NCBI RefSeq assembly: GCF_036365825.1
Contig: NZ_CP142675.1
Coordinates: forward strand, 186,001 to 250,000
Source of the DNA: Qipengyuania sp. HL-TH1
GTDB taxonomy: Bacteria > Pseudomonadota > Alphaproteobacteria > Sphingomonadales > Sphingomonadaceae
Length of the DNA stretch: 64,000 nt
Direction of reading: 5' to 3'
A model generated the notes under the pieces. That model worked only from the letters and a program-made list of their open reading frames with translations, searched no databases and was not told the origin of the DNA. Within the stretch, counting starts at the first letter, position 1. The number at the start of each line of letters is the position of its first letter. This document shows, in pieces, positions 11,337 through 53,828 of the stretch. The translations under genes and the position numbers were made by a program.

Positions 11337-11536
11337 CGGCAATTCCGTGGCCCGATTGTCTTGCGTTGTCAACGGCGGGCTCCGGCGGTGTCTTGTAGTC
11401 AAACCGCAGGAAACCACTTCTTCCGGTCGGTGACGCGCCTCCGCCGCGCACAGATCCCGATGGGCCGCCGGGAGTTTCGCTCGCCGGTTCCCAATCCGAT
11501 TGACTTCTATAGCCGTGAGCCACACCCACCGAGAGG

Positions 11537-32275: not shown

Positions 32276-34372
32276 TTGAGCGAGGACAGGGACGACAATC
32301 TGCTGATCCGCGGCTGGCGCAATGTGCGCGAGGCCGGCCCGCGTCGTCTGGTGTTGACCGCGGTGCTGGTGCTCATGGCGCTGCTGATCGCGCGCTACAG
32401 CTGGAACATCCCGCACGAGGTGGTCCCCGACGAATGGCGTATCGAAGGCGCCGAGAATGTCGACATCACCACGCCGGGTACGGGCGACGCCGAACGCGCG
32501 CTGTATGACTGGCGCAGCTCGATCTTGGCGGACAAGATCGAACAGGACGATCGCATCACGATGGTGGTCTATGACGACCAGACGCTGATCGCCGCGCGCA
32601 AACGCTCGCCGCTCGATCGCGGGATGCTGTCGCGCGCGCTGCAGATCATCGACGGGATGGAGCCCAAGGCGATCGGGCTCGATATTCTGTTCGACCAGCC
32701 GCAGGACGAGGATGCCGAGCTGCTCGCCACCTTGCGCGGCATGCAGACCCCGACGCTCGTCGGCTACGCCAATTTCGCGACCAATGAAGCCGATATCGTC
32801 TACGACCAGCAGGTCTATCTCGAGGAGTTCCTCGCCCAGCTCGAAGGGTCGAATGCGACCCCCGCCAGCATCCGGCTCGACAACACCAATGGCGTGACGC
32901 GCAAATGGCCGAGCATCGAACCCGACCTGCCGCCGGTGCTGGGCCGCGCCATGCTCCGCGCCGCGGGCGAGGGCGAGCTGGCACTGCCGGGCTACGAAGG
33001 GGCGTTGCGCTATCGCCATCCCGCGTTCGAGAACGAGCCGATGTACGGACGTCTCCAGATCGACAATTTCCTCGATCCGGTGCTGATGGAAATTCCCGAG
33101 GTGCGCGCCATGCTGCGCGAACAGATCGAAGGCCGCTATATCCTCGTCGGCGGCGACATCATCGATTACGACCGCGTCCAGACCACCCTCTCCAGCGTCA
33201 TCGGCGAAAATCCCGCCGGGCTGCGCGTCCATGCGGATATGATCGCGCAAATGCTCGACGGCGATCGGCGCGGGCAGGTGGGGGGCCTCACCCTGTGGAT
33301 GATGGCGATACTGGTGGTCGCCACTGCCGTGCTCACCGGTCTGCTCGAATGGGGTAGCTGGCGCATCTACCTGCTGCTCGCGGCGCAGTTCGGCACCTTT
33401 ATCGGCGTGCCTTTCGTGATGGAATGGCAGGGGGTCGATACGCTCGGCGTGCCCGCTGCCGGCTGGCTGCTTGGCTGGATCATCGCCTTTACCGCAGTGG
33501 TGTCCGCCGCGCGCGCGAGCGGCGCGGTGCAGCGGAATTTCGCGCAAGGCGCGCTGGGCAAATACCTCCCGCGCGAAATGGCGCAGGAAATCCTCGAAAA
33601 CCCGCAGTTGCTCTCGCTTCATGGCGAGAAGAAGGAACTCTTCGTACTGTTCTCGGACCTCGAAGGCTTCACCAAGATGAGCCATGCGATCGAGCCGGAA
33701 ATGGTCGCCAAGCTGCTCAACCGCTATCTCGACATGCTGTCGGACGTGGTGCTCGATCATGGCGGCGTGATCGACAAATTCGTCGGCGATGCGGTGGTCG
33801 CCTTCTGGGGCGCACCGATCGCGCGGCCCGACGATGGCGAGCGCGCCGCCCGCGCCGGTTACGCCCTGTGGCAGGCGGGCGAGGCGTTTCGCGAAGAAGT
33901 CGCGGCGATGGACGCCGGGCTGCCCAAGATCGGCAAAACCCGCGTGGGGCTGCATTTCGGCGAGGCGGTGGTCGGCAATTTCGGCGGCGAGAACCGCATC
34001 CAGTATACCGCGCTGGGGGACAGCATGAACACTGCCGCACGGCTCGAGGCGGCCAACAAGGCGCTGGCATCCAGCGTCATGGCCAGCCGCGAATTCTCCG
34101 ACCGGGCGGGGCTCGACTGGTGGCGTCCGATGGGCCGCGTGGTCCTGCGCGGACGCGCGCGCGCCGTCGAGCTGATGGAGCCGGTACCCGATTTCCCCGC
34201 TGCCGATCGGGCATTGCTGGCGGATGCATACAAGCTGGTCGGGACGGACGATGCTAGGGCAGCGGAGATCATCGCCGATGTCGTCAGCCGTCATCCGGCT
34301 GACACGGCGCTGGAAAACCTGTTATATCGAATTCAGAACCTGGATGATGGAGGGGCTTATGTCCTCGGTTAA
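32276..34372 (+). CDS. CHASE2-domain class III adenylyl cyclase
   Basis: A 698-residue membrane cyclase. One helix near residues 24-40 is followed by an extracytoplasmic CHASE2 domain (about 75-340), three helices (about 340-415) and a class III catalytic domain (about 450-620). Metal ligands are Asp461 (FSDLEGFT) and Asp505 (FVGDAVVAF); Asn585 and Arg589 (NTAARLE) are the transition-state pair. Lys501 and Thr578 occupy the purine-specifying positions, the class IIIb pattern, which indicates ATP as substrate and possibly bicarbonate response. TTG 32276 follows GGAGG by seven bases. The FecR-like gene overlaps its 3' end. It is the likely cAMP source for the cyclic-nucleotide domains at 48180-50630. 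Confidence 0.88.
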   Translation: MSEDRDDNLLIRGWRNVREAGPRRLVLTAVLVLMALLIARYSWNIPHEVVPDEWRIEGAENVDITTPGTGDAERALYDWRSSILADKIEQDDRITMVVYDDQTLIAARKRSPLDRGMLSRALQIIDGMEPKAIGLDILFDQPQDEDAELLATLRGMQTPTLVGYANFATNEADIVYDQQVYLEEFLAQLEGSNATPASIRLDNTNGVTRKWPSIEPDLPPVLGRAMLRAAGEGELALPGYEGALRYRHPAFENEPMYGRLQIDNFLDPVLMEIPEVRAMLREQIEGRYILVGGDIIDYDRVQTTLSSVIGENPAGLRVHADMIAQMLDGDRRGQVGGLTLWMMAILVVATAVLTGLLEWGSWRIYLLLAAQFGTFIGVPFVMEWQGVDTLGVPAAGWLLGWIIAFTAVVSAARASGAVQRNFAQGALGKYLPREMAQEILENPQLLSLHGEKKELFVLFSDLEGFTKMSHAIEPEMVAKLLNRYLDMLSDVVLDHGGVIDKFVGDAVVAFWGAPIARPDDGERAARAGYALWQAGEAFREEVAAMDAGLPKIGKTRVGLHFGEAVVGNFGGENRIQYTALGDSMNTAARLEAANKALASSVMASREFSDRAGLDWWRPMGRVVLRGRARAVELMEPVPDFPAADRALLADAYKLVGTDDARAAEIIADVVSRHPADTALENLLYRIQNLDDGGAYVLG

Positions 34373-35084
34373 GAACATACTCGCAGGGGCCGCGCTCTCG
34401 TTTGCAGCGCTCGGTTTTCTTGGATCGACACCCGCGCAGGCCGGGGTGGTGGTCAAGTCCAGCGGGCCGTCTGCCGAAACCTATCCGGTGGGCAAGAAGC
34501 TCGACGATGCGGCGAGCGTTACGCTCCGCACCGGCGACAGCATCACCGTGCTGACCGGCAGCGGGACACGCGTTATCTCGGGTCCGGGCACGCACCGGGT
34601 GGGGGCACGCGGCGCGAGCAAGCGGACCGCCTTTGCCATGCTCACCCGCCAGCAGTCGGGCGCCCGCGTCCGGACGGGGGCGGTGCGCGGCGGGGCTACC
34701 GGATCGTCCACCAATTCGAATCTGTGGAACATCGACATCAGCCGTCCGGGCAAGGTCTGCCTCCCGGCAGGCGATGCCATCACCTTCTGGCGTCCCTCGA
34801 TCGAAGGCGGGGAAACCTGGGTGCTGGGTTCGGCGATTTCGGATTTCCACCTCCATTTCACCTTCGAGGACGGCTCCGCCACCGCGTCGCTCAGCGCCGA
34901 CGAACTGCCGCTGGCGCAGAACCGGCTCTACGACCTGTCGGGTCCGGCGGGCGGGGCGAAGCAGCGCCTCGAATTCATCGCGCTGGACGAAACGCCGCAA
35001 GATCCCGAAGATCTAGCCGTTGCGCTGGCCAATCTGGGTTGCATGGGCCAGCTTGACCTCTTGAGCGAGAAACTGGCGAGCTAA
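34359..35084 (+). CDS. FecR-like exported protein
   Basis: A 241-residue protein with a clear signal peptide ending at AQA (about residue 29). The first half resembles a FecR domain: VGKKLDDAASVTLRTGDSITVLTGSGTRVISGPG. FecR-type proteins next to CHASE2 cyclases are common, and the two probably sense a periplasmic signal together. ATG 34359, after GGAGGGG, overlaps the cyclase by 14 bp; a longer open frame would remove the signal peptide from the N-terminus and is rejected. Function beyond this is unknown. Confidence 0.65.
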   Translation: MSSVKNILAGAALSFAALGFLGSTPAQAGVVVKSSGPSAETYPVGKKLDDAASVTLRTGDSITVLTGSGTRVISGPGTHRVGARGASKRTAFAMLTRQQSGARVRTGAVRGGATGSSTNSNLWNIDISRPGKVCLPAGDAITFWRPSIEGGETWVLGSAISDFHLHFTFEDGSATASLSADELPLAQNRLYDLSGPAGGAKQRLEFIALDETPQDPEDLAVALANLGCMGQLDLLSEKLAS

Positions 35085-35098
35085 GCAACTACCGGTGG

Positions 35099-35132
35099 CC
35101 CCGCGGCACGGGGCATGGCGGCTGCCGCGGGG
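35099..35132 (+). terminator. Ten-base-pair hairpin before the cytochrome operon
   Basis: CCCCGCGGCA (35099-35108) and TGCCGCGGGG (35123-35132) form a perfect 10-bp stem with a 14-base loop between the FecR-like gene and the first cytochrome gene. No U-run follows, so it may be an attenuator, RNA-processing site or Rho-dependent end rather than an intrinsic terminator. Confidence 0.4.
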
Positions 35133-35169
35133 GGCGGCAGCAGCAGATTAGGGCAATCGGGGAGGGCCG

Positions 35170-36573
35170 ATGAAACGCCGGGCAGCACGCTGGCAAGGGG
35201 GACGGGGCGGAGCCGTGCGGGCGTTTGCGCTCGCGCTGCTGCTTGCGCTGGCCGCTGTCGCGCCCGCGGGCCCCGATTCCTCCGCCGCCAACGCCCAGTC
35301 CTCGACTGCAAACTTCGAAGGCGTGGCAACCTGTGCCGGCTCGACCTGCCACGGCCGTTCGGAAGGCAATGGCGCGGTCGTCCGGCAGGACGAGATCGCG
35401 ACCTGGCAGGCCCCGTCTTCGGCCAGCGGGGCGCATAGCCGTGCCTATTCGGTGCTCGCCAGCCGCCGCGGCCGCCAGATCGCGCAGACCTTGGGGCTGG
35501 GGGCGGCGACCTCCGCGCCCGCCTGCCTCGGCTGCCATGCAACCTATGTCCCGCAATCGCGCCGCGGCGCGCGTTTCCACACCAGCGACGGGGTGGGCTG
35601 CGAGAGCTGCCATGGCGCGGCAGAAGGCTGGCTGCAGGTCCATTACGAGAAGGCCGCCAGCCATGCTTCCAATGTGCGCGCGGGGCTGGTGCCGCTCGAA
35701 GATCCGCAGGTGCGCGCGAAAATCTGTCTCGACTGCCATTACGGCAGCACCGATACGGGCCAGTTCGTCACCCATTCGATGATGGCTGCGGGCCACCCGC
35801 GGATTTCGTTCGAGCTCGACCTTTTCTCCTCGCTGCAGCAGCATCACACCGAAGATGCCGACTATGCCCGCCGCAAGGGGCGCAGCGACAGCGTGCGGTT
35901 GTGGGCGGTGGGCCAGGCGGAAGCGGTTGCGCGGGCGACCGATCTGTTCGCGCGGCCCGGCTTCGGCATGCGCGGCATGTTCCCCGAATTCTATTTCTAC
36001 GACTGCCACAGCTGCCACCGCGCGATCACCGACGGGCCCGCCCGGCGGCTGACTTTCGAGACCAATCCCGGCCGCCCGATCCCCTTCGGCAATGCGCCGT
36101 TCAACGATGAGAACATCATCATGCTGTCCGCGGTCGGCCGGGCGCTGGCCCCCGGCGCTGGCGAGGCTTTCGGTGACGCGAGCGTGGAATTCCACCGCGC
36201 GATGGGCCGCGACCGCGGCAGCGCGCAGCAAGCCGCGATTGCCTTGCGCGAGCGGGCGCAGGCGCTGTCCAATGCGCTGGCCGCGCGCTCGTTCGGCAGC
36301 AGTGATGCCTATCAGGTGATCGCGGCGATCGCCTCGCAGGCGACCGCGCCGCGCTTTACCGATTACACCGGGTCGGTCCAGGCGGTGATGGCGGTCGATA
36401 CGCTGCTCAATGCACTGGTCCGCGAAGGCCGCGTGACGGTCGGCGCGGCGGCTGCGATCCGCGCCAATATCAACCGTGCCTATGCCGCAGTGGCCGCGCC
36501 GGAGACCTATCGTCCCGCCGCATTCCGCAGCGCGCTGGCCAGCGCGACATCCGCGATCGGGAGCCTGCGATAA
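35170..36573 (+). CDS. Pentaheme c-type cytochrome (cytochrome c554-like)
   Basis: A 467-residue exported protein with an N-terminal signal segment (about residues 16-42). Five haem-binding motifs are seen: CAGSTCH at Cys55, which has four rather than two residues between cysteines, then CLGCH (119), CESCH (144), CLDCH (186) and CHSCH (279). The spacing and the GVGCESCHGAAEGW context resemble cytochrome c554-type multihaem proteins. Several lone His residues could be distal ligands. It is probably a periplasmic electron carrier. Its stop overlaps the next ATG by one base, starting a translationally coupled series of four genes (35170-44556). Confidence 0.85.
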   Translation: MKRRAARWQGGRGGAVRAFALALLLALAAVAPAGPDSSAANAQSSTANFEGVATCAGSTCHGRSEGNGAVVRQDEIATWQAPSSASGAHSRAYSVLASRRGRQIAQTLGLGAATSAPACLGCHATYVPQSRRGARFHTSDGVGCESCHGAAEGWLQVHYEKAASHASNVRAGLVPLEDPQVRAKICLDCHYGSTDTGQFVTHSMMAAGHPRISFELDLFSSLQQHHTEDADYARRKGRSDSVRLWAVGQAEAVARATDLFARPGFGMRGMFPEFYFYDCHSCHRAITDGPARRLTFETNPGRPIPFGNAPFNDENIIMLSAVGRALAPGAGEAFGDASVEFHRAMGRDRGSAQQAAIALRERAQALSNALAARSFGSSDAYQVIAAIASQATAPRFTDYTGSVQAVMAVDTLLNALVREGRVTVGAAAAIRANINRAYAAVAAPETYRPAAFRSALASATSAIGSLR

Positions 36574-38552
36574 TGCGCCGGCGCGCGCTTGGCTGCCTGA
36601 CGGGGGCCCTCGCTCTGGTCCTGGCATCCTGCGGCGGTGATGGCGGAACGACGGGCGGCGGCGGAGGCGGCACGGCGTCTCCGACACCCAGCCCAACGCC
36701 GACCACCGGGGGGCGGCTGTTCACCGATCCGGCGCAGCGCGCGCTGTCGGTCGGAGATGTCCAGCAGATCATCGCGCAAGCCGTGGGCGAGGCACAGGCG
36801 CGCGGCCTCCCCGCCACCGTCGCGGTGGTCGACCGGGTGGGGAATGTCCTCGGCGTTTTCGCCATGACCGGCACGCCCGGCAACACCCGCATCAGCCGGC
36901 GCACGATTGCCGGGCGCGCCGTGCCGGGTGACGAGGTCGGGCTGCAGGGCGTCCAGGTGCCCACCGCCGCCGCCGCCATCGCCAAGGCGATCACCGGTGC
37001 CTATCTCTCGAGCGGAGGCAATGCCTTTTCGACCCGCACGGCCAGCCAGATCGTGCAGGAGCATTTCCCGCCCGCCGCCTCGACCGTGGGGCTTGAAAGC
37101 GGGCCGCTGTTCGGCGTGCAGTTCAGCCAGCTGCCCTGTTCGGACCTGTCCACGCGGATGAGCGACGGGATGATCGGCCCGCAGCGCTCGCCGCTGGGGC
37201 TGGCCGCAGATCCGGGCGGTTTCCCGCTTTACAAGTACGGCGTTGTGGTCGGCGGCATCGGCGTTGCCGGCGACGGCGATTACGGCTTCGATCCCGATAC
37301 GATCGACGTGGACCGCGCCGCCGAGGAATTCGCCGCGGTTGCAGGGACACAGGGGTTCACCCCGCCGCGTGCGATCGAGGCGGACCGCATCCCGGTCGAC
37401 GGCACCAGCCTGCGCTATAGCGATATCGCGGCCAGCGACCTGGGCCCGCTGCAGCGCAGTTTCGGCGCGGTTAACGGCCCTTCGGGCACGCTTGTGCCGG
37501 TGTTCGGCTATAATGACGGCACGATCCGCGCGGGGACCGCCTATGGCACCAACGCCTCGGGCATCCGCCGCAGCACCGCGAGCGAGTTTGCCAATCGCGA
37601 TGCCTATGTGCTGGTCGACGCGGCCGGGACACCGCGCTTCCCGATCCGCGCGGGGACCGACGCCGCAAGCATTGCCGATCCGCTGAGCGCTGCCGAAGTC
37701 CGCGCGGCGATGGAGGAGGCATTTACCGTCCTCAGCCGCGCGCGCGCGCAGATCCGCCGCCCGCTCGACAGCCGGATGCAGGCGACGATCAGCGTGGTCG
37801 ATACGCATGGCGCGGTGCTCGGGATCGTGCGTTCGCCCGACGGGCCGATCTTCGGCACCGATGTATCGCTGCAGAAGGCGCGCACTGCGGCCTTCTTCTC
37901 CAACCGCGTTGCAGCGGCGCAATTGCAGGCTGCCGGACCCGCAGTGGCGGACTATGTCCAGCGGGTGCGCAGCTTCCTCGGCGATGCCAACGCGCTGACC
38001 GGGACCTTCGCCTTTGCCGATCGGTCGGGCGGCAATCTGTCGCGGCCCTATTTCCCCGATGGCGAGGTGGGCGATGTGGCCGGCCCGCTCTCGGTCGAAC
38101 GGCCGGGCCAGTTCAGCCCGTTCATGACCGGGCTGCAGACCGAGCTGATCGTCCCCAATCTCGTCCAGCATCTCGGCTTCGTGATTTCGGGCGGGGCCAG
38201 TCCCGATACGCCGCGCACCTGCACACAAGTGCCCGATGCGCCGGGCGGCGGGAAGCGGCTGGCGAATGGCATCCAGATCTTCCCCGGTTCGGTACCGATC
38301 TATCGTGGGGACCAGCTCGTCGGCGGCATCGGGGTATCGGGTGACGGGATCGACCAGGACGACATGGTCAGCTTCCTTGGCCTGCATAATGGCGGGCAGC
38401 GCACGGGCGGTATCGGCAATGCACGCTTCGAGATCCGCGCCGACCGGATCGTGGTCAATGTCAACGGTAGCAACGTGCGGCTGCGCTACGTCAATTGCCC
38501 CTTCGCGCCGTTTCTCGACGATCCCCGCCAGAATGTCTGCGAGGGGCTGTGA
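36573..38552 (+). CDS. Lipoprotein with two HbpS/GlcG-like domains
   Basis: A 659-residue protein with lipobox LASC (Cys20) and a Gly/Pro/Thr linker to about residue 47. Two HbpS/GlcG-like units follow: LSVGDVQQIIAQAVGEAQARGLPATVAVVDRVGNVLG and, near residue 370, LSAAEVRAAMEEAF...ATISVVDTHGAVLG. Each ends with the family motif (GGIGVAGDG and GGIGVSGDGIDQDD). HbpS binds haem in Streptomyces, so haem or cofactor binding near the membrane is plausible but unproven; catalysis by GlcG relatives is not established. Start and stop overlap both neighbours, so it is a built-in part of the cytochrome operon. Confidence 0.75.
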   Translation: MRRRALGCLTGALALVLASCGGDGGTTGGGGGGTASPTPSPTPTTGGRLFTDPAQRALSVGDVQQIIAQAVGEAQARGLPATVAVVDRVGNVLGVFAMTGTPGNTRISRRTIAGRAVPGDEVGLQGVQVPTAAAAIAKAITGAYLSSGGNAFSTRTASQIVQEHFPPAASTVGLESGPLFGVQFSQLPCSDLSTRMSDGMIGPQRSPLGLAADPGGFPLYKYGVVVGGIGVAGDGDYGFDPDTIDVDRAAEEFAAVAGTQGFTPPRAIEADRIPVDGTSLRYSDIAASDLGPLQRSFGAVNGPSGTLVPVFGYNDGTIRAGTAYGTNASGIRRSTASEFANRDAYVLVDAAGTPRFPIRAGTDAASIADPLSAAEVRAAMEEAFTVLSRARAQIRRPLDSRMQATISVVDTHGAVLGIVRSPDGPIFGTDVSLQKARTAAFFSNRVAAAQLQAAGPAVADYVQRVRSFLGDANALTGTFAFADRSGGNLSRPYFPDGEVGDVAGPLSVERPGQFSPFMTGLQTELIVPNLVQHLGFVISGGASPDTPRTCTQVPDAPGGGKRLANGIQIFPGSVPIYRGDQLVGGIGVSGDGIDQDDMVSFLGLHNGGQRTGGIGNARFEIRADRIVVNVNGSNVRLRYVNCPFAPFLDDPRQNVCEGL

Positions 38553-40402
38553 TGGCGGCGGCCGCGCTTACCCCGCTGGCTTTGCTGCTCGCTGCCCAGG
38601 CGGAACTGCCGCCTGAGCCCGCGTCTGCGGAAGCGCCGCCGGTGGTCAATCCCGAACCGGGCGAACCCGCCGCGGTCGACCCGGCGATCATCGATGGCCG
38701 CCGCCGTCCCGATTATACCGAGCCGCTGCCCGATGCGGTGTCTCAGACCAATGAGGGCGCGGTGCGCGCGCCGCCGCCCGAGGCGTTCCCGGTCGACCAG
38801 GTCCCGATCCCCGACCGCTGGCGGCTGGTCGAAAGTCTCGGCCTCGTGACCGAACGCTGGTGGGACCCCTATAACCAGAACACCTACAAGGGCGACCGGC
38901 CGATCAATCCGGACAAGGTGCCGTGGCTGCCGATCACCGGCGACGACTGGTTCTTCATCGTCAATGCGATAAGCGACACGGTGTTCGAACCGCGCACCTT
39001 CCCCATTCCGGTGGGTGTGCAGACGACCGAGCGGCCCGACAGCATCGACGTTTTCGGCAAGGACACCAGCTATGTCCTGTCGCAGAGCTTCATCGTCGGC
39101 GCCGCGCTGCTCAAGGGCAGCACCGCCTACAAGCCGCCCGATGTCGAATACCGCGTCACGCTGGCGGCCAATCTCAATTATGTCGATGTGCCCGAGCGGC
39201 GCGTGCTGTTCGTCGAACCGAGCAAGCCCTCGCATCGTTTCGACCACTTCGTCGGCGTGCAGGAAGCCTTCTTCGACTATCACTTCCGCAATGTCTCTGA
39301 CCGGTATGATTTCGATAGCGTGCGGATCGGCATCCAGCCCTTCCAGGCTGACTTCCGCGGCTTCCTGTTCAACGACAACCAGCTTGGCGTGCGGTTTTTT
39401 GGAACGCGCGACAACAACCGCTTCCAGTACAATTTCGGCGGTTTCTGGCGGCTCGAGAAAGACACCAATAGCGGGCTCAACGCGGTGCTGCAGACGCCGC
39501 GCGATGATTATGTGTTCTACGTCAACGCCTACCGGCAGGATTTCCTGATCCCCGCGCTGACAAGCCAGCTGACCTTCGTGTGGAATGCCAATCGCGAAGC
39601 CCAAGACGTCCAGATCGACGACAATGGCTTCCCGGTGCGCCCCGCCTTGCTGGGGTCGCTGCGCGGGCGCGATTACGATGTCTTCTACGTCGGCTACAAT
39701 GCCGACGGCCGGATCGGACGGATCAATCTGACGGGCAGCGCCTATTATGCCTTCGGCGAGGACCGCAATTCCTTCTTCACCGACCGGCCCGCCGATATCA
39801 GCGCCTATTTCGCCGCGCTGGAGGCGAGCTATGACCGCGACTGGATCCGTTTCCGCCTGTCCGCCGCCTATGGCAGCGGCGACGGCGATCCCTATGACGA
39901 TGTCGAGACCGGCTATGACGCGATCTTCGAAAATCCCGTCTTTGCCGGAGCCGATACGTCCTACTGGATCCGCCAGACGATCCCCTTTGCCGGCGGCGGC
40001 CGCGCGATCAGCGTCAACGGGCGCAATGGCATCCTCAATTCGCTGCGCAGTTCGAAAGAGCAGGGGCAGTCGAATTTCAACAATCCCGGGCTGATGCTGC
40101 TGGGCGCCGGCGCCGATTTCGATATCACGCCCGAGTTCCGCCTCTCCGCCAATGCCAACCATTTGTGGTTCGAGAACACGGCGACGCTGCAGGCGCTGCG
40201 CAACGAAGGCTCGATCCCCAAGGCGATCGGCTGGGACCTGTCCGCCGCAGCGATCTGGCGGCCCAAGGCGACGCAGAACATCGTTTTCCGCCTGTCCGCG
40301 GCGACGCTCATTTCCGGTGACGGTTTCGACGATCTGTTCACCTCGCTTGGCAATCCGCGCGCCTATTATTCGGTGCTCGCAAACGCGGTGCTGACCTACT
40401 GA
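38552..40402 (+). CDS. Probable outer-membrane beta-barrel of the cytochrome operon
   Basis: A 616-residue protein with a short hydrophobic leader, a Pro/Glu-rich segment to about residue 45, then alternating polar/aromatic strands typical of an outer-membrane barrel, ending VLANAVLTY with a C-terminal aromatic. I recognise no named family. Wedged between multihaem cytochrome genes with TGATG overlaps on both sides, it could act as the porin of a porin-cytochrome complex, as MtrB or PioB do, but no homology to them is claimed. ATG 38552 has GAGGGG five bases upstream; TTG 38495 would add an Arg-rich n-region and a more classical signal peptide. Confidence 0.65.
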   Translation: MAAAALTPLALLLAAQAELPPEPASAEAPPVVNPEPGEPAAVDPAIIDGRRRPDYTEPLPDAVSQTNEGAVRAPPPEAFPVDQVPIPDRWRLVESLGLVTERWWDPYNQNTYKGDRPINPDKVPWLPITGDDWFFIVNAISDTVFEPRTFPIPVGVQTTERPDSIDVFGKDTSYVLSQSFIVGAALLKGSTAYKPPDVEYRVTLAANLNYVDVPERRVLFVEPSKPSHRFDHFVGVQEAFFDYHFRNVSDRYDFDSVRIGIQPFQADFRGFLFNDNQLGVRFFGTRDNNRFQYNFGGFWRLEKDTNSGLNAVLQTPRDDYVFYVNAYRQDFLIPALTSQLTFVWNANREAQDVQIDDNGFPVRPALLGSLRGRDYDVFYVGYNADGRIGRINLTGSAYYAFGEDRNSFFTDRPADISAYFAALEASYDRDWIRFRLSAAYGSGDGDPYDDVETGYDAIFENPVFAGADTSYWIRQTIPFAGGGRAISVNGRNGILNSLRSSKEQGQSNFNNPGLMLLGAGADFDITPEFRLSANANHLWFENTATLQALRNEGSIPKAIGWDLSAAAIWRPKATQNIVFRLSAATLISGDGFDDLFTSLGNPRAYYSVLANAVLTY

Positions 40403-44556: not shown

Positions 44557-44626
44557 GCGCCCCGGAGTATTTCCCGGATCAGGAAGTCACATCGCTGGGC
44601 GCCGCCCCATCAGGGGCTGGGCAGGA

Positions 44627-45478
44627 CTACCGGCGCTCGGCCTTCATTTCGCGCACCATGGGTTTGAGATGCTCGCCATAATGCGCAAGCACTTCCCATT
44701 CACCGCAGCTTTCGTAATGCGTCACCAGGTCCGTGCCGTCCCAGTAATGCAATGCGTAGCTGGCCGGCTCGGTGGTGATCAGCGCGCGATTGTCCGCTGC
44801 ATGCTCGTCGATCGGGCGCAGGTCGAGCGCCACCAGCGGCGCGACCGAAGGCGTGATGCCGAGCGGGATGCCCCTGAACCGCGCTGCGACGCGGCGATGC
44901 AGATGCCCGCAATGAATTGCCTGGATCGTATCCTGGTGCCCGTCCACGGCGGCGGCGAAGTTGGCAATCCACGGCTCGTCCGGCGCAGGGTCCATCCAGT
45001 CGATCCCGGCGACGATCGGCGGGTGGTGCATGAAGATGACGCAGGGCTTGCCGTCGCCGCTCGCCAGCGCCGCGCGTAGCCAGTCGCGCCGTTTTTCGCA
45101 GAAGGCGCCGCCATGACGGCCCGGCTCGAACGTATCGAGGCAGATGATCCGCAACCCGTCCTGCTCGACCACATACTGCAGGAACTCGCCTTCGCAGGGC
45201 GTGTCGGGAAATGCGCGGAGCAGTTCTTCGCGGTCGTCGTGATTGCCGACCAGCGGGAGCATGGGGCAGGGAATATCGGCCAGCACCGCGGCGATCTTGG
45301 AAAAGCTGTCACGGTCGCCATGGTCGGTGAGATCGCCCGACAGCACGAGGAAATCGAGCGTGTGCGGGGTCTTTGCCAACCGTTCGAGCACCGCGCCGAA
45401 GCGGATGCGGTTGAGTTCTTCCGGACGCGCGTCCGGATCGAAACCGATATGGACATCGGTCATCTGAGCGATCAGCAA
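44627..45478 (-). CDS. CpdA-like metallophosphoesterase
   Basis: A 283-residue calcineurin-like phosphoesterase. The five metal-binding blocks are intact: TDVHIG, SGDLTDHG, LVGNHDD, MHHPPI and CGHLHR. This arrangement and length fit class III 3',5'-cyclic-AMP phosphodiesterases such as CpdA, so cAMP hydrolysis is the leading hypothesis; other phosphoesters remain possible. TTG 45478 with GGGGAGAG six bases upstream is chosen; ATG 45460, inside the first motif, would delete conserved residues. It is 31 bp downstream of the FHA-cytochrome gene on the same strand and convergent with the decaheme gene, so it likely shares the minus-strand operon. Confidence 0.78.
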   Translation of the reverse strand: MLIAQMTDVHIGFDPDARPEELNRIRFGAVLERLAKTPHTLDFLVLSGDLTDHGDRDSFSKIAAVLADIPCPMLPLVGNHDDREELLRAFPDTPCEGEFLQYVVEQDGLRIICLDTFEPGRHGGAFCEKRRDWLRAALASGDGKPCVIFMHHPPIVAGIDWMDPAPDEPWIANFAAAVDGHQDTIQAIHCGHLHRRVAARFRGIPLGITPSVAPLVALDLRPIDEHAADNRALITTEPASYALHYWDGTDLVTHYESCGEWEVLAHYGEHLKPMVREMKAERR

Positions 45479-45509
45479 AGCGTCTCTCCCCCTGATGCCA
45501 CGCCGACCC

Positions 45510-47273
45510 TCATTCGCTGCCCTCGCGCTGCCGCGACAGGCGGGCCACCCGATCGGGCACCGGGCTTTGCGGGCCGTCCTCGCGGCGCTGGAAGGTCGGC
45601 GGGTGATAGCTGTGGCACATGGCGCAGGTCGACGGGACATCCGCCGCAACTGCGTCGGCGCCCTGGTGGCATTCGCGGCAGCTGGTCAGCGTCGGCAGGA
45701 GCAGGTCGGTGGCGCTGGCGGAGGTGTCGGCGGCGTGGCAGCTGCTGCATTCCTCCTGCTCATGCGCCTTGTGATCGAACCGGCCATTGAGGAAATAGTG
45801 GCTGCTCTGGAACACCGGCACGACGCTTGGCTGCCCGTCAACCGTGGTGGGGATGTGGCATTCGCCGCAGACGCCATCCTCGGACAGCGCCCGTGCGACA
45901 CCGAGATAGTTGCGCGCAGGTGCGCCGAAATCCTGGAAATAGCGGCCGCCGCGCTTGAATTCGCCCGGGCGCCTCAGCCCGCTGGTGATCGGTTCGCGCG
46001 GGGCGCGGTCCATCGCGATCAGGTCGGCGCGCATCTGCGCGACATCGCCATGGCGCAGGGACCGGAAGGTCGTGCCGACCTTGTCGTAGACGAGGCTGTG
46101 GCAGCTCTCGCAATCGCTTTCCATTTCCACCGGCAGGAAGCCGATGCGGTCGGCGGTCGGACGGTGGCAATCGGCACAGACCAGCGCTTCGCCATAATCG
46201 GGCAGCGTCCCCGCCATCCGCGCGACGCCATTGGTCTCCGAGAGATGCATGTCATGCGGGAAGCGCAGCCCGCTGTTTTCGCGCGCCTTGCCGTCGAGCG
46301 TTACGCGCGCGGTGCGATCGCTGCCTGCCTCGGTGAACACCAGCGCCTGCAGTTCGGGGTGGTCGGTGCCAAAATCATGCGCATTGCCGAGCGCGGTATC
46401 GCCCAGCCGCGTGTCCATCGCCTCGTGGCAGCTCGAGCAGAATTGCTGCGCGGCAGGCTCCATCCGCCCGGCGCCTTCATGCTCGGTATGGCAAGTGGTG
46501 CAGGCTTCGGGGCCTTCCTTGCCGAAGACCCCGGCGACGTCCCACAGCAGCGCTTCGCCCGTACCCATCGGCCCGCGTGAGGCGGCGAGCCGGTCCATCT
46601 CGGCGTGGTCGCCGATATTCTCGTGGCACGACAGGCAGGTCTCGTCGCGGACCGAGACGAAGGGCTCGACGTGGCAGGCCTCGCAATTGTTCTCGAGCGA
46701 ATGGTGCGCGAGGCTCAGCTTGCCGGTGCTCCAGCTGTCATCCCATGCCACCTGGTCCACGCCATGCGCACCGGGCTGCTTGTCCGCGCGTGCGAGATTG
46801 GTCCAGATCGGCACGGCGAGGAAGGCGATGAGGATCACCAGCACGCCGATCCACGCGGCCGCGCGCTTGCTCGGCATGACGCTGGCGAGATCGAAGCCGC
46901 GCACCGCATCGCGATTGCCGAATTCGCGCTCTTCCTGCGTCACCGTGACCAGCGTGCGCCCGTCCGCCTCCAGCCCGAAGGTCAGCGTATAGAGGCCGAG
47001 CGTCAGCGCACCGCCCGCCGCCGGGTCGATGCTGACCGATTTGCGCTTGTGCCCGTCGAAAGTGAAATCGCGGCTGCCCGCGGCCTCGATCGCCAAATGG
47101 CCGCGGTCGGTGCGGGTGACCGAGACATGGTGCTGCTCGACCGCAAGGTCGGCCACCACCACATCGTTGGTCGTCGCGCGGCCGATTGCCAGCCTGTCGC
47201 CTTCGACAACGCGGTCGCGCACGATTTCACGCCCGGTGGCGGTGAGGTCGATGGTGCGGATGAGGAATGTCAT
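45510..47273 (-). CDS. FHA domain, membrane helix and decaheme cytochrome fusion
   Basis: A 587-residue protein of unusual build. Residues 1-110 form an FHA domain: IGRATTNDVVVADLAVEQHHVSV keeps the Gly-Arg and His landmarks, though the usual Ser-Arg before His reads Glu-Gln, so phosphothreonine binding is uncertain. A single helix at about 138-158 crosses the inner membrane. The rest should be periplasmic, with ten CxxCH motifs at Cys 197, 213, 258, 279, 366, 388, 469, 509, 532 and 550. It would link a cytoplasmic signalling domain directly to a haem wire. It follows the cytochrome b gene by 10 bp. Confidence 0.88.
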   Translation of the reverse strand: MTFLIRTIDLTATGREIVRDRVVEGDRLAIGRATTNDVVVADLAVEQHHVSVTRTDRGHLAIEAAGSRDFTFDGHKRKSVSIDPAAGGALTLGLYTLTFGLEADGRTLVTVTQEEREFGNRDAVRGFDLASVMPSKRAAAWIGVLVILIAFLAVPIWTNLARADKQPGAHGVDQVAWDDSWSTGKLSLAHHSLENNCEACHVEPFVSVRDETCLSCHENIGDHAEMDRLAASRGPMGTGEALLWDVAGVFGKEGPEACTTCHTEHEGAGRMEPAAQQFCSSCHEAMDTRLGDTALGNAHDFGTDHPELQALVFTEAGSDRTARVTLDGKARENSGLRFPHDMHLSETNGVARMAGTLPDYGEALVCADCHRPTADRIGFLPVEMESDCESCHSLVYDKVGTTFRSLRHGDVAQMRADLIAMDRAPREPITSGLRRPGEFKRGGRYFQDFGAPARNYLGVARALSEDGVCGECHIPTTVDGQPSVVPVFQSSHYFLNGRFDHKAHEQEECSSCHAADTSASATDLLLPTLTSCRECHQGADAVAADVPSTCAMCHSYHPPTFQRREDGPQSPVPDRVARLSRQREGSE

Positions 47274-47283
47274 GATCCGCGCC

Positions 47284-48180
47284 TCACCAATAATAGAACA
47301 CGCTGACGACATGCGCCGTCAGTGCCGCGAGCAGCGCGATGGTCAGCGGCACATGCACATAGAGCCAGATCTGGAGCAGCGCCTTGGTCTGCATCTGGCG
47401 GCGGATCTGGTCGATCTGTGCGGCGCGCTTGCCGAGCAGCGAGCGGACCTTCTGCTGCGCGAGGTCATGCGTGTCGTCGTCATAGGCACGCCCGGTCGAG
47501 ATATGCTGCAGCGCCGCGCGTGTCGCATCGCGGCGGCTGGATCCGCGGAACCGCGCGGCGATCCCGGAAGAGAAGACATCCTGTTCGAGTGCGGCGATCA
47601 CCCGGTCGGCATCGTCGCGCGACAGCGGCTGCGCGGCGGCCTCGAGCTGCTTGTCGATCGCCGCGAGGCTTTCGATCATCTGTTCGCGCGTCATCTCGCG
47701 GCGGTTTTCGGACAGGGCCTGCGGCAGCGAGGCATAGACCGCGATGCCATAGGCGCCCGAGATGATCACCAGCATCATCAGGACCCAGGCCAGCGTATGG
47801 ACGTTCCAGCCGAGCTGGAAGCCGGTGTGCAGCGTGCCGATGATCACCAGCGACAGGCCGAGATAGACATGCGCGCTGGTCCACGCCTTGAGGCTCCAGC
47901 TGCCCGGCGTCGGGCGGCGCTTGCGAATGCCCAGCCATGCCAGCCAGACGATCAGCCCCGCGCCTACCGTGCCCAGCGTATAACCGTACCAGCTCCCGCC
48001 ATTGTGCCGCGGATCGACGTCGATCAGCACATAGGTGAGCACCACGAAGAGCCCGAGGAAGGCTGCCACCCGGGCCCAGTAATAGGCGCGGTGGGCGAGG
48101 AAGCTTTCGTGATTGGCCGAGCGGCGCTGCTCGATCTCGGCATAGCCCGTGGCATCGTCGCTGGAGGAGACGGTTGCCAT
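47284..48180 (-). CDS. Probable diheme cytochrome b membrane subunit
   Basis: A 298-residue membrane protein with about five helices. Two helices each carry His residues 14 apart (His104/His118 and His276/His290), and His128 lies in the next helix, a spacing suited to two stacked b-type haems as in quinol-linked cytochrome b subunits. A cytoplasmic, charged, helical stretch of about 110 residues (155-265) separates helices four and five. The start overlaps the stop of the upstream flavo-iron-sulfur gene (TGATG). It probably passes electrons between that protein or quinol and the periplasmic decaheme protein. No named family is certain. Confidence 0.7.
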   Translation of the reverse strand: MATVSSSDDATGYAEIEQRRSANHESFLAHRAYYWARVAAFLGLFVVLTYVLIDVDPRHNGGSWYGYTLGTVGAGLIVWLAWLGIRKRRPTPGSWSLKAWTSAHVYLGLSLVIIGTLHTGFQLGWNVHTLAWVLMMLVIISGAYGIAVYASLPQALSENRREMTREQMIESLAAIDKQLEAAAQPLSRDDADRVIAALEQDVFSSGIAARFRGSSRRDATRAALQHISTGRAYDDDTHDLAQQKVRSLLGKRAAQIDQIRRQMQTKALLQIWLYVHVPLTIALLAALTAHVVSVFYYW

Positions 48181-50630
48181 CAGTCGGCCCCTTCTTCGAG
48201 CCGTGCGACGGTGAGGAAGCGTTCGGGGCTCACGCGGATCGCCGCGCCGGTCGGGCAGGCGCGCACGCAGGCGGGACCGCCCTCGATCCCGCTGCACATG
48301 TCGCATTTGATCGCCAGCTTGGCGGTCTCGCCCACTTCGGCGGCCTTGCGCGTGCGCCATGCGTAGCTGGCTTCGCCGGGGCCGGGCCCCGCGCCGAACA
48401 GCAGCCAGCTGAGCAGGCCGGGCTTGGGCGGCGGCTTGGCATCCATCCGGATCACGCCATAGGGGCAGTTGCGCTGGCAATTGCCGCAGCCGATGCAGGT
48501 CTCGTCGATCACCACTTCGCCGTCGGGGCCGCGCTTGATCGCATTGGGCGGGCAGTCGGCCATGCAGTGCGGATGCTCGCAATGCCGGCACGAGGTCGGC
48601 ACGTGCAGATGCGCATAGGTCCGCCCCGCCTCGCGATCGAGCCGGCTGAGCCCGTCATGGCTGTCGGCGCAGGCCTTCTCGCAATTGTCGCAGCCGACGC
48701 ACAGCTTCTCGTCGATCAGCAGCACGTCGGTCGCTTCGCCAAGCCCGTTCTCGACGAGGAATTGCGCGGTCTGCGAATACATGTCGACCGCGCCGCCGAA
48801 GCTCGCCTTGCGGCTTTCCACGAAGTCGTTGATCTCGCGCCGCGCCGCCATGTCCTTGAGCGCGCGGGTGCGGATATCGGGCTTGGCGTCGAGCAATGCG
48901 TTGAACATCTCGCCCGGGAAGCGGATCACCTCGCTCTTGATTGCCGCGCGGACGCTGGCGGAGCGTTTCGACCCGTCGATCACTGCCATTTCGCCGAAAT
49001 AGGAGCCGGCAGGAAGGTAGGAGAGGAACACCGGCTTGCCGCCGAGGTCCTTCTCCACCACCATCGATCCGACGCGGACGATATAAATGTCCTTGTCGTC
49101 GGCGCCTTCTTCCACCACCACTTCGCCCGCGGGGACCGAGACCACTTCGGCGGCCTCGACCAGCTCGGCGATGTCGGCCGGGGTCAGGCCAGCACCGAAG
49201 ATCTGCAGCACCTGCCGCTCGATCGAGATGCGATTGACCGCGCGGTTGGCCGAGGGCGCGGTAGCCAGCAGCTTGAGCGCGGCAAGGCGCGAGAATTCGA
49301 CCACCACCGTGGGTTCGGGAGCGCGGATGGTGGACCCGCGCTTGCGGCCCGAAATCAGCCCGACCTCGCCAAAGATCGAGCCGGTTTCGATCGGCACGGT
49401 AATCGAACTGTCTTCGGGATCGACCTCGACCAGCACCGATCCCTCGGCAATCGCGAACATCGACGAACCCGGCTCGTTGCGGGTGAAAATCACTTCGCCG
49501 CGGTCATAGGCATGGACCCGGCTGTCGAGCATCAGCTCGCGCATCTGTAGCGGGCTCAGCTCCTGCAGGATGACGACCTGCGACCGGAACGCCTCGAGCC
49601 AGTCGCCGACCGAACGGTCCCCCGGCAGCGCAGCGAACTTCTCCGCCAGGATCGGTTCGTCGGCCGGTTTGAGATCGGTGTTGCCATCGAGGAATTCAAT
49701 GACGTCATAGCCCTGGTTCATGCAGTGCTTGATCAGCGGATAGCCCGCTAGCGCGCCGATCACATGGATACCCGGCTGCGTGGTCTCGAAGCTGGGGGTC
49801 AGCTTGGGAAAGGCAGTGCGGTCCTCGCTCGCAAACTCGACGCCGCATGCTTCGACAAAGGCGCGCGGCGGCTGCGAGCCGGTACGCGCGATGATCCGGT
49901 CGCAGCGTATGGTTTCCTCTCCGTCGCGCGTTTCGAGGACGAGTTCGCCCGCGCGGACCTCGAGCGGACTGGTTTCGCGGCGCACCGAGATGCGTCCGTC
50001 GGCCTCGCCTTCTTCGAGCAGCTTGACGTTGGCGCCCTTGGCGCGCGCGAAATCGGCGCGGCGGTTGAGGATCGTAACGACATTGCCCTGCGCCTCGTCG
50101 GCGGCGAGGCCGAGCGCGTTCTCGATCCCCGCATCGCCCGAACCGATCACGGTGATGTGCTCGTCGACATATTCGGTGGGATCGTCGAGCTGATACTGGA
50201 CGTGCGGCAGGTCGCCGCCCGGCAGCCGGAGCAAGTTGGGATTGCCCTGCGTCCCGATCGCCAGCACCACCGCTTCGGCCTCGACCGTCGATCCGTCCTG
50301 CAGCGTCAGCGTGAATGCGCCCGCCTGTCCCGCAATGCCGGTGACATCGGCATTGGTGCGCACCGCGACCTTGCCGTCCGCGACCTGCCGGTCCCAGGTG
50401 TCGAGGATCACCTCGCGCTTGCCGGCATCGAAATCCAGATCGCTGCGCAGTACCAGATTGCTGGGCGTCGCCATGACGTGCTTGCCCTTCTGGTATTTGT
50501 AGATGGTATCGGAAAGATGGTCGGTCTTTTCGAGCAGCACATGGCTCATGCCGCGATCTGCCGCATGCGCAGCCGCGCTCAGCCCGGCGGGGCCGGAGCC
50601 TACAATCGCTACACGAACTCTATCGCCCAA
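48180..50630 (-). CDS. FAD oxidoreductase with two cNMP domains and four [4Fe-4S] sites
   Basis: An 816-residue protein without signal peptide. Residues 1 to about 320 are a thioredoxin-reductase-like FAD/NAD(P) unit (GSGPAG 11-16; GSGDAG 163-168) lacking a CxxC redox pair. Two cyclic-nucleotide domains follow (about 345-470 and 475-600); both phosphate cassettes keep FGE and the ligand Arg (FGE 420-422/Arg431; FGE 545-547/Arg556). A DmsB-like ferredoxin region has four cysteine quartets: 644/647/650/654, 681/684/689/693, 712/715/718/722 and 776/779/788/792. It should move electrons between NAD(P)H and the cytochrome b under cAMP or cGMP control. It starts at TTG 50630 after a G-rich ribosome site. 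Confidence 0.85.
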   Translation of the reverse strand: MGDRVRVAIVGSGPAGLSAAAHAADRGMSHVLLEKTDHLSDTIYKYQKGKHVMATPSNLVLRSDLDFDAGKREVILDTWDRQVADGKVAVRTNADVTGIAGQAGAFTLTLQDGSTVEAEAVVLAIGTQGNPNLLRLPGGDLPHVQYQLDDPTEYVDEHITVIGSGDAGIENALGLAADEAQGNVVTILNRRADFARAKGANVKLLEEGEADGRISVRRETSPLEVRAGELVLETRDGEETIRCDRIIARTGSQPPRAFVEACGVEFASEDRTAFPKLTPSFETTQPGIHVIGALAGYPLIKHCMNQGYDVIEFLDGNTDLKPADEPILAEKFAALPGDRSVGDWLEAFRSQVVILQELSPLQMRELMLDSRVHAYDRGEVIFTRNEPGSSMFAIAEGSVLVEVDPEDSSITVPIETGSIFGEVGLISGRKRGSTIRAPEPTVVVEFSRLAALKLLATAPSANRAVNRISIERQVLQIFGAGLTPADIAELVEAAEVVSVPAGEVVVEEGADDKDIYIVRVGSMVVEKDLGGKPVFLSYLPAGSYFGEMAVIDGSKRSASVRAAIKSEVIRFPGEMFNALLDAKPDIRTRALKDMAARREINDFVESRKASFGGAVDMYSQTAQFLVENGLGEATDVLLIDEKLCVGCDNCEKACADSHDGLSRLDREAGRTYAHLHVPTSCRHCEHPHCMADCPPNAIKRGPDGEVVIDETCIGCGNCQRNCPYGVIRMDAKPPPKPGLLSWLLFGAGPGPGEASYAWRTRKAAEVGETAKLAIKCDMCSGIEGGPACVRACPTGAAIRVSPERFLTVARLEEGAD

Positions 50631-50663
50631 ACCGCAATCCCCCCCGGAGGCTTGCGAACCCGT

Positions 50664-50692
50664 ATTTTGTTATGAGGCGGCATCATAGGCAA
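50664..50692 (-). promoter_or_regulatory. Candidate promoter of the minus-strand redox operon
   Basis: Reading the minus strand, TTGCCT (50692-50687) and CAAAAT (50669-50664) are 17 bases apart and match four of six bases each of the sigma-70 hexamers. Transcription would begin about 25 bases before TTG 50630. Confidence 0.3.
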
Positions 50693-50756
50693 AACTCAAG
50701 CGGTGGCAATTGCTTGTCGGGCCCAGCCGCGATAGCCAGCGGGCAAGGGGGACGTG

Positions 50757-51673
50757 ATGGGCGAGAAAAAGACCGGCAACCGCGTGACAGGGGGGTACTG
50801 CTGTTCGGCCTGGCGCTCGCAGCCATCCTTGCCGCAGTTGGCTACCGCGCGCTCGACGGGGTTGATGCCGATACGGACGAATCGCCCGCGGCCACACCGC
50901 TCGAAGCGCTCGAGGCGCGTGTCGTCGAAGAACCCGGCGATGCCGCGGCATGGCAGGAGCTGGGCTTCACCCGCTACGGACGCGGTGAATTCGGCGCGGC
51001 GGCCACGGCCTATCGCGAAGCCACCGCGCTCGAACCGGACACTGCAGTACTGTGGTCGGCATACGGTGAAGCGCTGGTGATGGACAGCCAGCGCGATCCG
51101 CTGCCGTCCGAAGCGCTGGCCGCTTTCCGCCGCGCAATCGCGCTCGATCCGGCAGACCCACGGGCGCGCTATTTCCTTGCCGTGAAGCGCGATCTCGATG
51201 GCGACCACGAAGGCGCGATTTCCGCGTGGCTGGAACTGCTCGAAGACACGCCGCCGGGCGCGCCGTGGGAAGCCGATCTCGCGCGGACGATCGAGCAGGT
51301 GGCGACGATCAACAAGCTCGAGGTCGCTCCGCGGCTCGAACGCGCGCAGGCTGCGCGGTCAGTCCCCGCAGCGACGGGCGCGGGGCTGACCGCGACCGGC
51401 GCGATACCCGGGCCGAACGCCGCCCAGCTTGCCGCCGCTTCGCAAATGCCCCCGGGCGAGCAGCGCCAGATGGCCGAGGGCATGGTCGCCAGCCTCGAAC
51501 AGAAGCTGGTCGCCGATCCGTCGAACCTCGACGGGTGGGTGATGCTGATGCGGTCGCGCACCACGCTGGGTCAGCCCGATCGCGCGCGCAAGGCGCTGAG
51601 CGATGCGGTCGCGGCCAATCCCTCCGCCGCCACACGGCTGCGCGCCGAAGCGGAAGCGCTCGGAATTCGCTAA
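50757..51673 (+). CDS. TPR protein, CcmI/NrfG-like, with apparent frameshift
   Basis: A membrane-anchored tetratricopeptide protein of the type that helps c-type cytochrome assembly (CcmI/NrfG). One hydrophobic helix is followed by TPR-like repeats (about 52-150) and a C-terminal GWVMLMRSRTTLG repeat as in CcmI. ATG 50757 has AAGGGGGA four bases upstream, but its frame ends soon; the helix and repeats are one frame away. Adding one G to the G6 run at 50790-50795 joins them into about 305 residues. An uninterrupted frame from ATG 50672 exists, but lacks a ribosome site and adds an atypical N-terminus. This may be a sequencing error or slippage site. Confidence 0.65.
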
Positions 51674-53764: not shown

Positions 53765-53828
53765 GGGCGCGCAAATAGGGCCGAATGGCGCGGTTGTCAC
53801 TGTCGCGCGCTTAAGGCACGGGGAGGGC

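Follow-up and report, generated by a model that had tools for sequence, protein, structure and literature searches.

The window analyzed here, i.e., the whole stretch of 64,000 nucleotides from Qipengyuania sp. HL-TH1 (contig NZ_CP142675.1, positions 186,001 to 250,000; genome of 3.3 Mb on two contigs, completeness 100%), encodes within 20 kb what is very probably a transmembrane electron-transfer system. Established in outline is that a predicted NAD(P)H/flavin/Fe-S protein is tied to a membrane protein with two HX13H pairs and encoded together with exported multiheme proteins. For the whole set we propose a cyclic-nucleotide-gated, NAD(P)H-driven conduit across both membranes with outward electron flow, a reading to which we give slightly less than an even chance.

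The genes are arranged in two groups (Table 1). On the + strand, the gene of a CHASE2-class III cyclase (CYC) is followed by that of a small exported protein and by the outer module, i.e., PENTA, HbpS, BARREL and DECALV. The - strand carries in reading order FADcNMP, which encodes flavin, tandem cyclic-nucleotide-binding (CNB) and Fe-S domains, then CYTB and FHADECA (the three being referred to as the input trio) and the phosphodiesterase gene PDE. A CcmI-type TPR gene diverges from FADcNMP. The locus is bordered by gcv glycine-cleavage genes (by translation) on one side and a polysaccharide gene on the other. A preliminary description of this DNA had listed the parts of the set, and every one was found at or near its position, including the heme-binding-type lipoprotein and the cytochrome assembly TPR protein, which the matches in Table 1 bear out.

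Conservation of the gene set

Within a family sample of 199 genomes, FADcNMP is found in 71 and DECALV in 72, i.e., in the same 71 and in G022, which is 67% complete. Both are missing from G078, a complete single-contig genome of the window's genus. The two genes lie at most 20 kb apart in 35 of the 71 genomes and at most 60 kb in 39; of the remainder, 12 have both on one contig at a greater distance and 20 have them on different contigs, where some of the splits are draft-assembly breaks. The preliminary description had named parts scattered without linkage as the outcome that would speak against a joint system. For the family we reject such scattering, given that DECALV is present in 71/71 FADcNMP-positive genomes even when far apart and that the PENTA-HbpS-BARREL-DECALV block is intact at 9/9 loci where DECALV and FADcNMP are on different contigs or separated by some 40 kb or more. 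Among 20 family stretches, one of which (L026) ends at a contig end, FADcNMP, CYTB, FHADECA and PDE occur together in all 20, the TPR gene in 17, DECALV in 12, and PENTA, HbpS and BARREL in 11.

A scan of named genomes confirmed at least 573 relatives, the best 80 of which were kept and are sphingomonads; the closest named relatives of the window's FADcNMP are Qipengyuania. Of the 80 loci, 65 extend 9.9 kb or more beyond FADcNMP on its downstream side; here we found CYTB and FHADECA 65 times each, PDE 63, DECALV 49, BARREL 46 and HbpS 28 times, with the 10-kb flank restricting the counts of later genes. FADcNMP is also present in twelve Sphingobium plasmid records, of which the one that was read, the conjugative pMSHV of Sphingobium herbicidovorans MH, has the whole set. 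The pairwise divergence of six genes is correlated with r of 0.79-0.95 (15 gene pairs, 25 loci; shared ancestry not removed). Order, heme counts and co-occurrence are conserved over the roughly 100 loci read, where some organisms may be represented twice.

Beyond the family, a class sample of 289 alphaproteobacterial genomes and a phylum sample of 299 genomes were used. In the class sample, 26 genomes have FADcNMP and 20 of these also DECALV; 23 and 17 of them, respectively, do not belong to the family. DECALV without FADcNMP was seen in neither the family nor the class sample except for the incomplete G022. In 20 stretches read from the 23 outside genomes, covering 13 other families, the input trio is found 18 times and runs on along one strand into HbpS, BARREL and DECALV 13 times, with PENTA nearby in 12 and a TPR homologue in 2. 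Because co-occurrence survives separation and synteny is kept in other families, the parts, judged by their sequences, behave as one system.

The phylum sample shows FADcNMP in 9/299 genomes, four of them outside Alphaproteobacteria. In G618, the contig ends after FADcNMP, CYTB, FHADECA, HbpS and BARREL. G484 and G509 have the trio with no outer module in view; in G509 (source name Magnetococcales) FADcNMP and CYTB form one polypeptide. The best 120 of 5279 homologues of this fusion protein include Gallionella, Sideroxydans, Magnetococcales and Rhodocyclaceae names. The preliminary description had spoken of an aerobic alphaproteobacterium, which is too narrow, as input genes extend to Magnetococcales and some FAD-CNB-FeS proteins bear Gallionella and Sideroxydans names. 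As a separate observation, two class-level loci (L086:12631-13074, L091:8076-8606) hold small open reading frames without Pfam match between FHADECA and HbpS, for which no counterpart was noticed in the window.

Table 1. Genes of the locus, with positions counted from the first nucleotide of the window.
Gene and product	Position	Strand	Evidence and remarks
CYC: CHASE2 (periplasmic sensor) + class III nucleotidyl cyclase	32276..34372	+	Pfam CHASE2 3e-22, Guanylate_cyc 2e-12; four predicted transmembrane segments
Exported protein accompanying the cyclase	34347..35084	+	no Pfam match; homologue adjoins cyclase in 12/12 genomes examined
PENTA: exported pentaheme c-type cytochrome, cytochrome c554-like	35170..36573	+	Pfam Cytochrome_C554 8.5e-11
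HbpS: lipoprotein with HbpS-like (heme-binding/degrading) domains	36573..38552	+	Pfam HbpS-like 2e-20, 3 stretches; lipobox LASC in sequence
BARREL: probable outer-membrane beta-barrel	38552..40402	+	open reading frame listed from 38495, ATG at 38552 likelier; no Pfam match
DECALV: exported decaheme cytochrome (1384 amino acids), C-terminal LVIVD repeats	40402..44556	+	LVIVD 2e-15; 10 CXXCH
PDE: metallophosphoesterase, cyclic-nucleotide phosphodiesterase group	44627..45571	-	Metallophos 1e-12; start uncertain, open reading frame reaches 45649
FHADECA: degenerate FHA domain, one transmembrane segment, decaheme domain	45510..47312	-	10 CXXCH; start at 47273 suggested by Met14
CYTB: membrane cytochrome b, two HX13H pairs	47284..48180	-	HX13H pairs in aligned rows
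FADcNMP: FAD/NAD(P)H domain, tandem CNB domains, four [4Fe-4S]-type Cys sets	48180..50630	-	Pfam; motifs
CcmI/NrfG-type TPR protein, cytochrome c assembly	50672..51673	+	TPR_CcmH_CycH 7.5e-18

Elsewhere, the window encodes an Nmad3-domain protein (nucleotide-modification associated, 9e-71) at 53484-54551, as well as a TonB-dependent receptor and a LacI-type regulator (5621-8617 and 10314-11525), probably an ordinary uptake locus.

Predicted cofactors and topology

FADcNMP is a single polypeptide with neither signal nor transmembrane (TM) segment. It comprises a FAD domain, two CNB domains in tandem and four [4Fe-4S]-type Cys sets, the CNB module being placed between the flavin and the Fe-S domain. 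The FAD/NAD(P)H fold is nearest to YpdA, and a stretch N189-R190...F194...K198 is present, which we take to resemble an NADPH-binding motif. All 16 cysteines of the Fe-S domain are invariant in 41/41 rows. A thioredoxin-reductase-like disulfide chemistry was considered and rejected, i.e., none of the cysteines ahead of the Fe-S domain is invariant in the 41 rows (best C243, 37/41). Both CNB domains keep the motif GE...R, presumably the phosphate-binding cassette for cyclic nucleotides, in 41/41 family and class rows and in 15/15 rows of a set reaching beyond Alphaproteobacteria. That is, of the two binding-competent CNB domains of the preliminary description, the cassette motif is intact in both, while binding itself stays predicted. 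The tandem CNBs match regulatory subunits of PKA as one stretch (about 374-599; 6rsx, 3of1); single CNB domains also match CRP with similar scores.

CYTB has at least two HX13H pairs in 39/39 aligned rows, where His 106, 120, 130, 278 and 292 are invariant. Four hydrophobic segments exceed the threshold and a fifth was placed by eye at about 104-122, such that the HX13H pairs sit on the third and fifth segments (also by eye). For the window protein, all heme-b families stay below their Pfam cut-offs: Ferric_reduct (PF01794) scores 10.3 bits vs. a cut-off of 28, i.e., below membership, and is found weakly in 4/22 CYTB members (E up to 1, best 0.029), while Ni_hydr_CYTB is found in 21/22 (E up to 1). 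A profile search of the PDB with CYTB yielded nothing useful. The label of a diheme cytochrome b is thus carried by the two HX13H pairs and not by a Pfam family. CYTB resembles NOX/FRD-type proteins in its two HX13H pairs, its multiple TM segments and its coupling to a NAD(P)H/FAD protein, with which it is fused into one polypeptide in 3 proteins, two of them named Magnetococcales. According to the accessible part of PMC5566968, the HX13H pairs of FRD/NOX-type proteins are on TM3 and TM5. The N-terminus and the large loop of CYTB are probably cytosolic by a positive-inside reading of the alignment by eye, which is consistent with the fusion to FADcNMP.

The preliminary description had counted two decaheme proteins, and both are confirmed: ten CXXCH motifs are present in 39/39 rows of FHADECA and 27/27 rows of DECALV. 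The TM segment of FHADECA is at 151-169, and Met14 is kept in 36/39 rows. The profile of its FHA domain matches GarA (1e-7) and the GR pair is kept in 39/39 rows. The residues that we assume to form the FHA phosphothreonine site are not conserved (13 sampled rows), so that ordinary phosphothreonine binding is unlikely.

PENTA and DECALV have signal-like N-termini. The former was described as a pentaheme protein, and five heme motifs are indeed present, but these are four CXXCH plus one CX4CH instead of five CXXCH (pattern in 24/24 rows). Among solved structures, its profile matches cytochrome c554 (1bvb, 4e-6) and its single sequence matches 6i5b (8e-4). DECALV is partly similar to ExtM (NF040943), where 71 bits vs. 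a cut-off of 800 exclude membership in that family; a profile search of the PDB was fruitless. The model of DmsE/MtrA-type decaheme proteins (TIGR03508, cut-off 192) scores 17.8 bits on PENTA only, with FHADECA and DECALV not listed. One stop was counted inside the DECALV match of each of G002, G067, G174, G154, G081, G090, G012, G030 and G139; sequencing error, a match extending past the gene or decay are possible.

In family and class loci as well as in unlinked ones, BARREL has HbpS on one side and DECALV on the other. We consider it a probable outer-membrane beta-barrel, in keeping with its hydrophobic, signal-like N-terminus and an aromatic last residue (Y/F) in 26/26 rows. These features stand for the barrel of the preliminary description, while no Pfam family was found and a PDB profile search returned no barrel. 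An MtrB-type barrel was rejected, i.e., the genome's single weak match to MtrB_PioB (PF11854) lies away from BARREL.

Proposed electron flow and gating, and competing explanations

In the proposed mechanism, NAD(P)H would reduce the FAD of FADcNMP, and electrons would pass along the Fe-S chain to the two b hemes of CYTB and on via FHADECA and PENTA to the outer-membrane BARREL with a surface DECALV and the HbpS lipoprotein. Binding of a cyclic nucleotide to the tandem CNB would open or close the flavin-to-Fe-S step, with the CHASE2 cyclase sensing the periplasm and making the messenger that the adjacent PDE would remove. Flow would most likely be outward, making the system a regulated surface reductase or an outlet that relieves an excess of NAD(P)H. 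The path already traced in the preliminary description, from NAD(P)H via FAD/[4Fe-4S] and cytochrome b to multiheme proteins, is topologically coherent as predicted. Its cofactors, the order and outward direction of transfer, passage through the barrel, DECALV as surface partner and the gating are what we infer. Outward flow in sphingomonads appears likely, and control of the flow by CNB occupancy somewhat better than an even bet. These gradings and that of the electron-transfer system as such are not independent, and the confidence in their conjunction was lowered because some genomes hold input genes without outer module.

Cyclic nucleotides had been tied to the conduit from the outset, which within the family agrees with the linkage of CHASE2 cyclase and sensor, while a nearby cyclase or PDE is a family-level feature only. 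The catalytic domain of CYC exceeds its Pfam cut-off (47.6 vs. 21.9 bits). A class III domain is thus supported, while the class IIIb adenylyl cyclase of the preliminary description depends on motifs that we assume to be diagnostic. Homologues of CYC (E up to 1e-40) occur in 67/71 FADcNMP-positive vs. 6/128 negative family genomes and any class III cyclase in 71/71 vs. 18/128, where the respective Fisher tests take no account of shared ancestry. The idea of a mere local neighbor, with a cyclase at 6/20 loci (one weak) in a 20-kb survey, was rejected given the 67 genomes of the wider search. In these, the homologue and DECALV are at most 45 kb apart in 50, farther apart on the same contig in 5 and on different contigs in 12; where the gene groups are separated (32 genomes), 19 have the cyclase within this distance of DECALV and 1 has it within this distance of FADcNMP. 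Separately, genome G484 has a second FADcNMP copy (L193:1468-8961) without adjacent CYTB or FHADECA, beside an open reading frame of about 1090 amino acids with a class III cyclase domain.

We also inspected 12 genomes picked for a cyclase 11-38 kb from DECALV. All have next to it a homologue of the window's small exported protein, which we take to be FecR-like, and 8/12 have a CHAT protein upstream. A two-partner-secretion transporter and a homologue of the pMSHV exoprotein (2092 amino acids, no Pfam domain) lie between cyclase and PENTA in 8/12, while a ninth genome shows no more than a transporter match of 60 bits. Given these genes, surface contact may be coupled to electron export. The window holds no CHAT, transporter or exoprotein gene, in a search that did not cover the rest of the genome. 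On pMSHV (L206:31005-45950), a Crp/Fnr regulator, CHAT, CHASE2 cyclase, FecR-like, two-partner-secretion transporter and exoprotein genes are found directly upstream of PENTA.

PDE shows what we take to be metallophosphoesterase motifs in its translation, and its best solved-structure match is Rv0805. The CpdA-like phosphodiesterase of the preliminary description therefore stands as a metallophosphoesterase, but the NCBIfam model of CpdA scores 70 bits (cut-off 225) and that of SpdA, acting on 2',3'-cyclic nucleotides, 131 bits (cut-off 400). Action on cAMP is tentative.

Several observations weigh against a gated outward conduit. PDE may act on 2',3'-cyclic nucleotides. Four FADcNMP-positive family genomes lack a CYC homologue at 1e-40, though they have some class III cyclase, and outside the family a class III cyclase does not discriminate (27/27 positive, 14/16 negative genomes). 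The 20 stretches from other alphaproteobacterial families (10-20 kb) contain neither cyclase nor PDE, compared to PDE in 20/20 family stretches. On the outer side, the strand periodicity of BARREL is only weakly above that of shuffles (p 0.04-0.11, three rows tested), and surface exposure is presumed. The co-occurrence of FADcNMP and DECALV, proposed earlier as a check, is complete in the family, but 6/26 class-level FADcNMP genomes are without DECALV match. Four class-level loci (L098, L099, L100, L102) hold the trio and PENTA but none of HbpS, BARREL and DECALV, L101 has FADcNMP alone, and L097 lacks a DECALV match, with HbpS up to the contig end. The Magnetococcales stretch L194 shows no outer module either, and its FHADECA relative, outside the 39-row set, has nine CXXCH instead of ten.

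The cyclase and PDE findings could mean that the conduit is real but ungated by a cyclic 3',5'-nucleotide, i.e., the CNBs would have a structural role or a different ligand, with the cyclase acting on transcription via a CRP protein. We consider this rather unlikely: the lack of nearby cyclase and PDE at class level, the higher score of SpdA and the Crp/Fnr regulator beside the CHAT and cyclase genes of pMSHV are in accordance with it, while the invariance of the CNB motifs in both row sets and their position within the redox polypeptide argue for control by the CNBs. The loci without outer module, on the other hand, raise the question of two independent clusters that are neighbors here by chance. 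More than 60 kb or different contigs separate them in 32/71 genomes (some splits being draft breaks), and the six class-level genomes with FADcNMP but no DECALV match point the same way. Co-occurrence despite separation, correlated divergence, the single run in other families and the restriction of DECALV without FADcNMP to G022 make such a coincidence very improbable.

Two further explanations concern direction and purpose. The same conduit might run inward, with electrons from an extracellular donor such as Fe(II) or Mn(II) entering the outer module and the membrane potential helping to drive the reduction of NAD(P)+ at the flavin. At neutral pH, this reduction by Fe(II) or Mn(II) would cost more than one membrane potential per electron. 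Sphingomonads are mostly heterotrophs, and the best 80 of the at least 573 named loci belong to them; inward flow is accordingly quite doubtful here. It would fit the Gallionella, Sideroxydans, Magnetococcales and Rhodocyclaceae names among the best 120 FADcNMP homologues, a further point against outward flow. It would also fit a "Forkhead-associated protein" with ten heme motifs in 27/87 iron-oxidizing Gallionellaceae, listed under "Other" as cluster 403 (PMC10734462, Table 1). By name and heme count, this protein is probably FHADECA; forkhead occurs once in the accessible main text of that paper, which holds no discussion of the protein. An Erythrobacter sp. that oxidizes Mn(II) is mentioned in the accessible part of PMC5566968, but its system there is PCC3 with another porin type. 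Finally, an extracellular reductase with a specific task, e.g., ferric or heme iron acquisition or reductive oxyanion detoxification, with HbpS handling heme, would differ from the gated outward conduit in purpose without excluding it; it would serve neither respiration nor as a redox valve. An HbpS-like gene is directly upstream of BARREL in all family, class and unlinked stretches holding both, and ExtM, to which DECALV is partly similar, is named for a selenite/tellurite operon. As this similarity is far below the ExtM cut-off and no siderophore or metal-resistance gene was recognized within the window's module (relatives' neighbors were not searched for such genes), we rate such a task as rather unlikely.

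Relation to described conduits

With MtrCAB, PioAB and MtoAB, the system shares decaheme proteins, a (here probable) outer-membrane barrel and an inner-membrane electron source. In MtrCAB-type conduits, this source is a quinol-oxidizing CymA-type cytochrome. Here, the barrel is not of the MtrB_PioB type, the source is a NAD(P)H-type flavo-Fe-S protein with CNBs plus a cytochrome b, and the surface candidate carries LVIVD repeats. NOX/FRD proteins have in common the sequence of NAD(P)H, FAD and two HX13H pairs, but here four [4Fe-4S]-type sets and tandem CNBs are interposed and a decaheme protein is the next carrier. The two tandem CNBs resemble those of a PKA regulatory subunit, but are embedded in a redox protein with no kinase.

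As far as the accessible parts of PMC5566968 and PMC12016527 show, PCC3 of iron oxidizers also combines a two-HX13H inner-membrane protein with periplasmic and extracellular multiheme proteins and a porin and likewise occurs in Alpha-, Beta- and Gammaproteobacteria. It differs in its porins, for which as many as 42 transmembrane regions are given, and in its cytochromes, which carry 18-28 motifs. None of the terms cyclic, 4Fe-4S and FHA appears in the accessible main text of PMC5566968. The ext clusters of Geobacter (ExtM in extHIJKLMNOPQS, PMC5877670) have, as here, a porin gene beside multiheme genes, and DECALV is partly similar to ExtM, ExtN and ExtO, far below the NCBIfam cut-offs. No counterpart of the input module was noticed in the material compared from PMC5877670. 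Within these excerpts, the PCC3 and Ext systems seem to share the general plan and not these proteins. In the open-licence full-text literature, we found no description of this system and no text with both "cyclic nucleotide-binding domain" and "multiheme cytochrome".

Among sphingomonads the system is common, i.e., present in over a third of the family genomes sampled, with input genes reaching Magnetococcales and the FAD-CNB-FeS protein named in iron oxidizers. Sphingomonads are aerobes and not usually counted among electroactive bacteria. In most surface conduits described so far, the electrons come from the quinol pool and control is exerted at the level of transcription. Here, NAD(P)H appears to be the source, and the redox enzyme itself contains a cyclic-nucleotide sensor. 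We tentatively suggest, with chances somewhat short of even, that a second messenger directly gates an electron wire, where a PKA-like tandem switch would turn NAD(P)H-driven export on or off and the cyclase encoded with the outer module would close the loop. If this is true, second messengers gate electron flow post-translationally, which is now a testable question, as is what aerobes do with such a wire.

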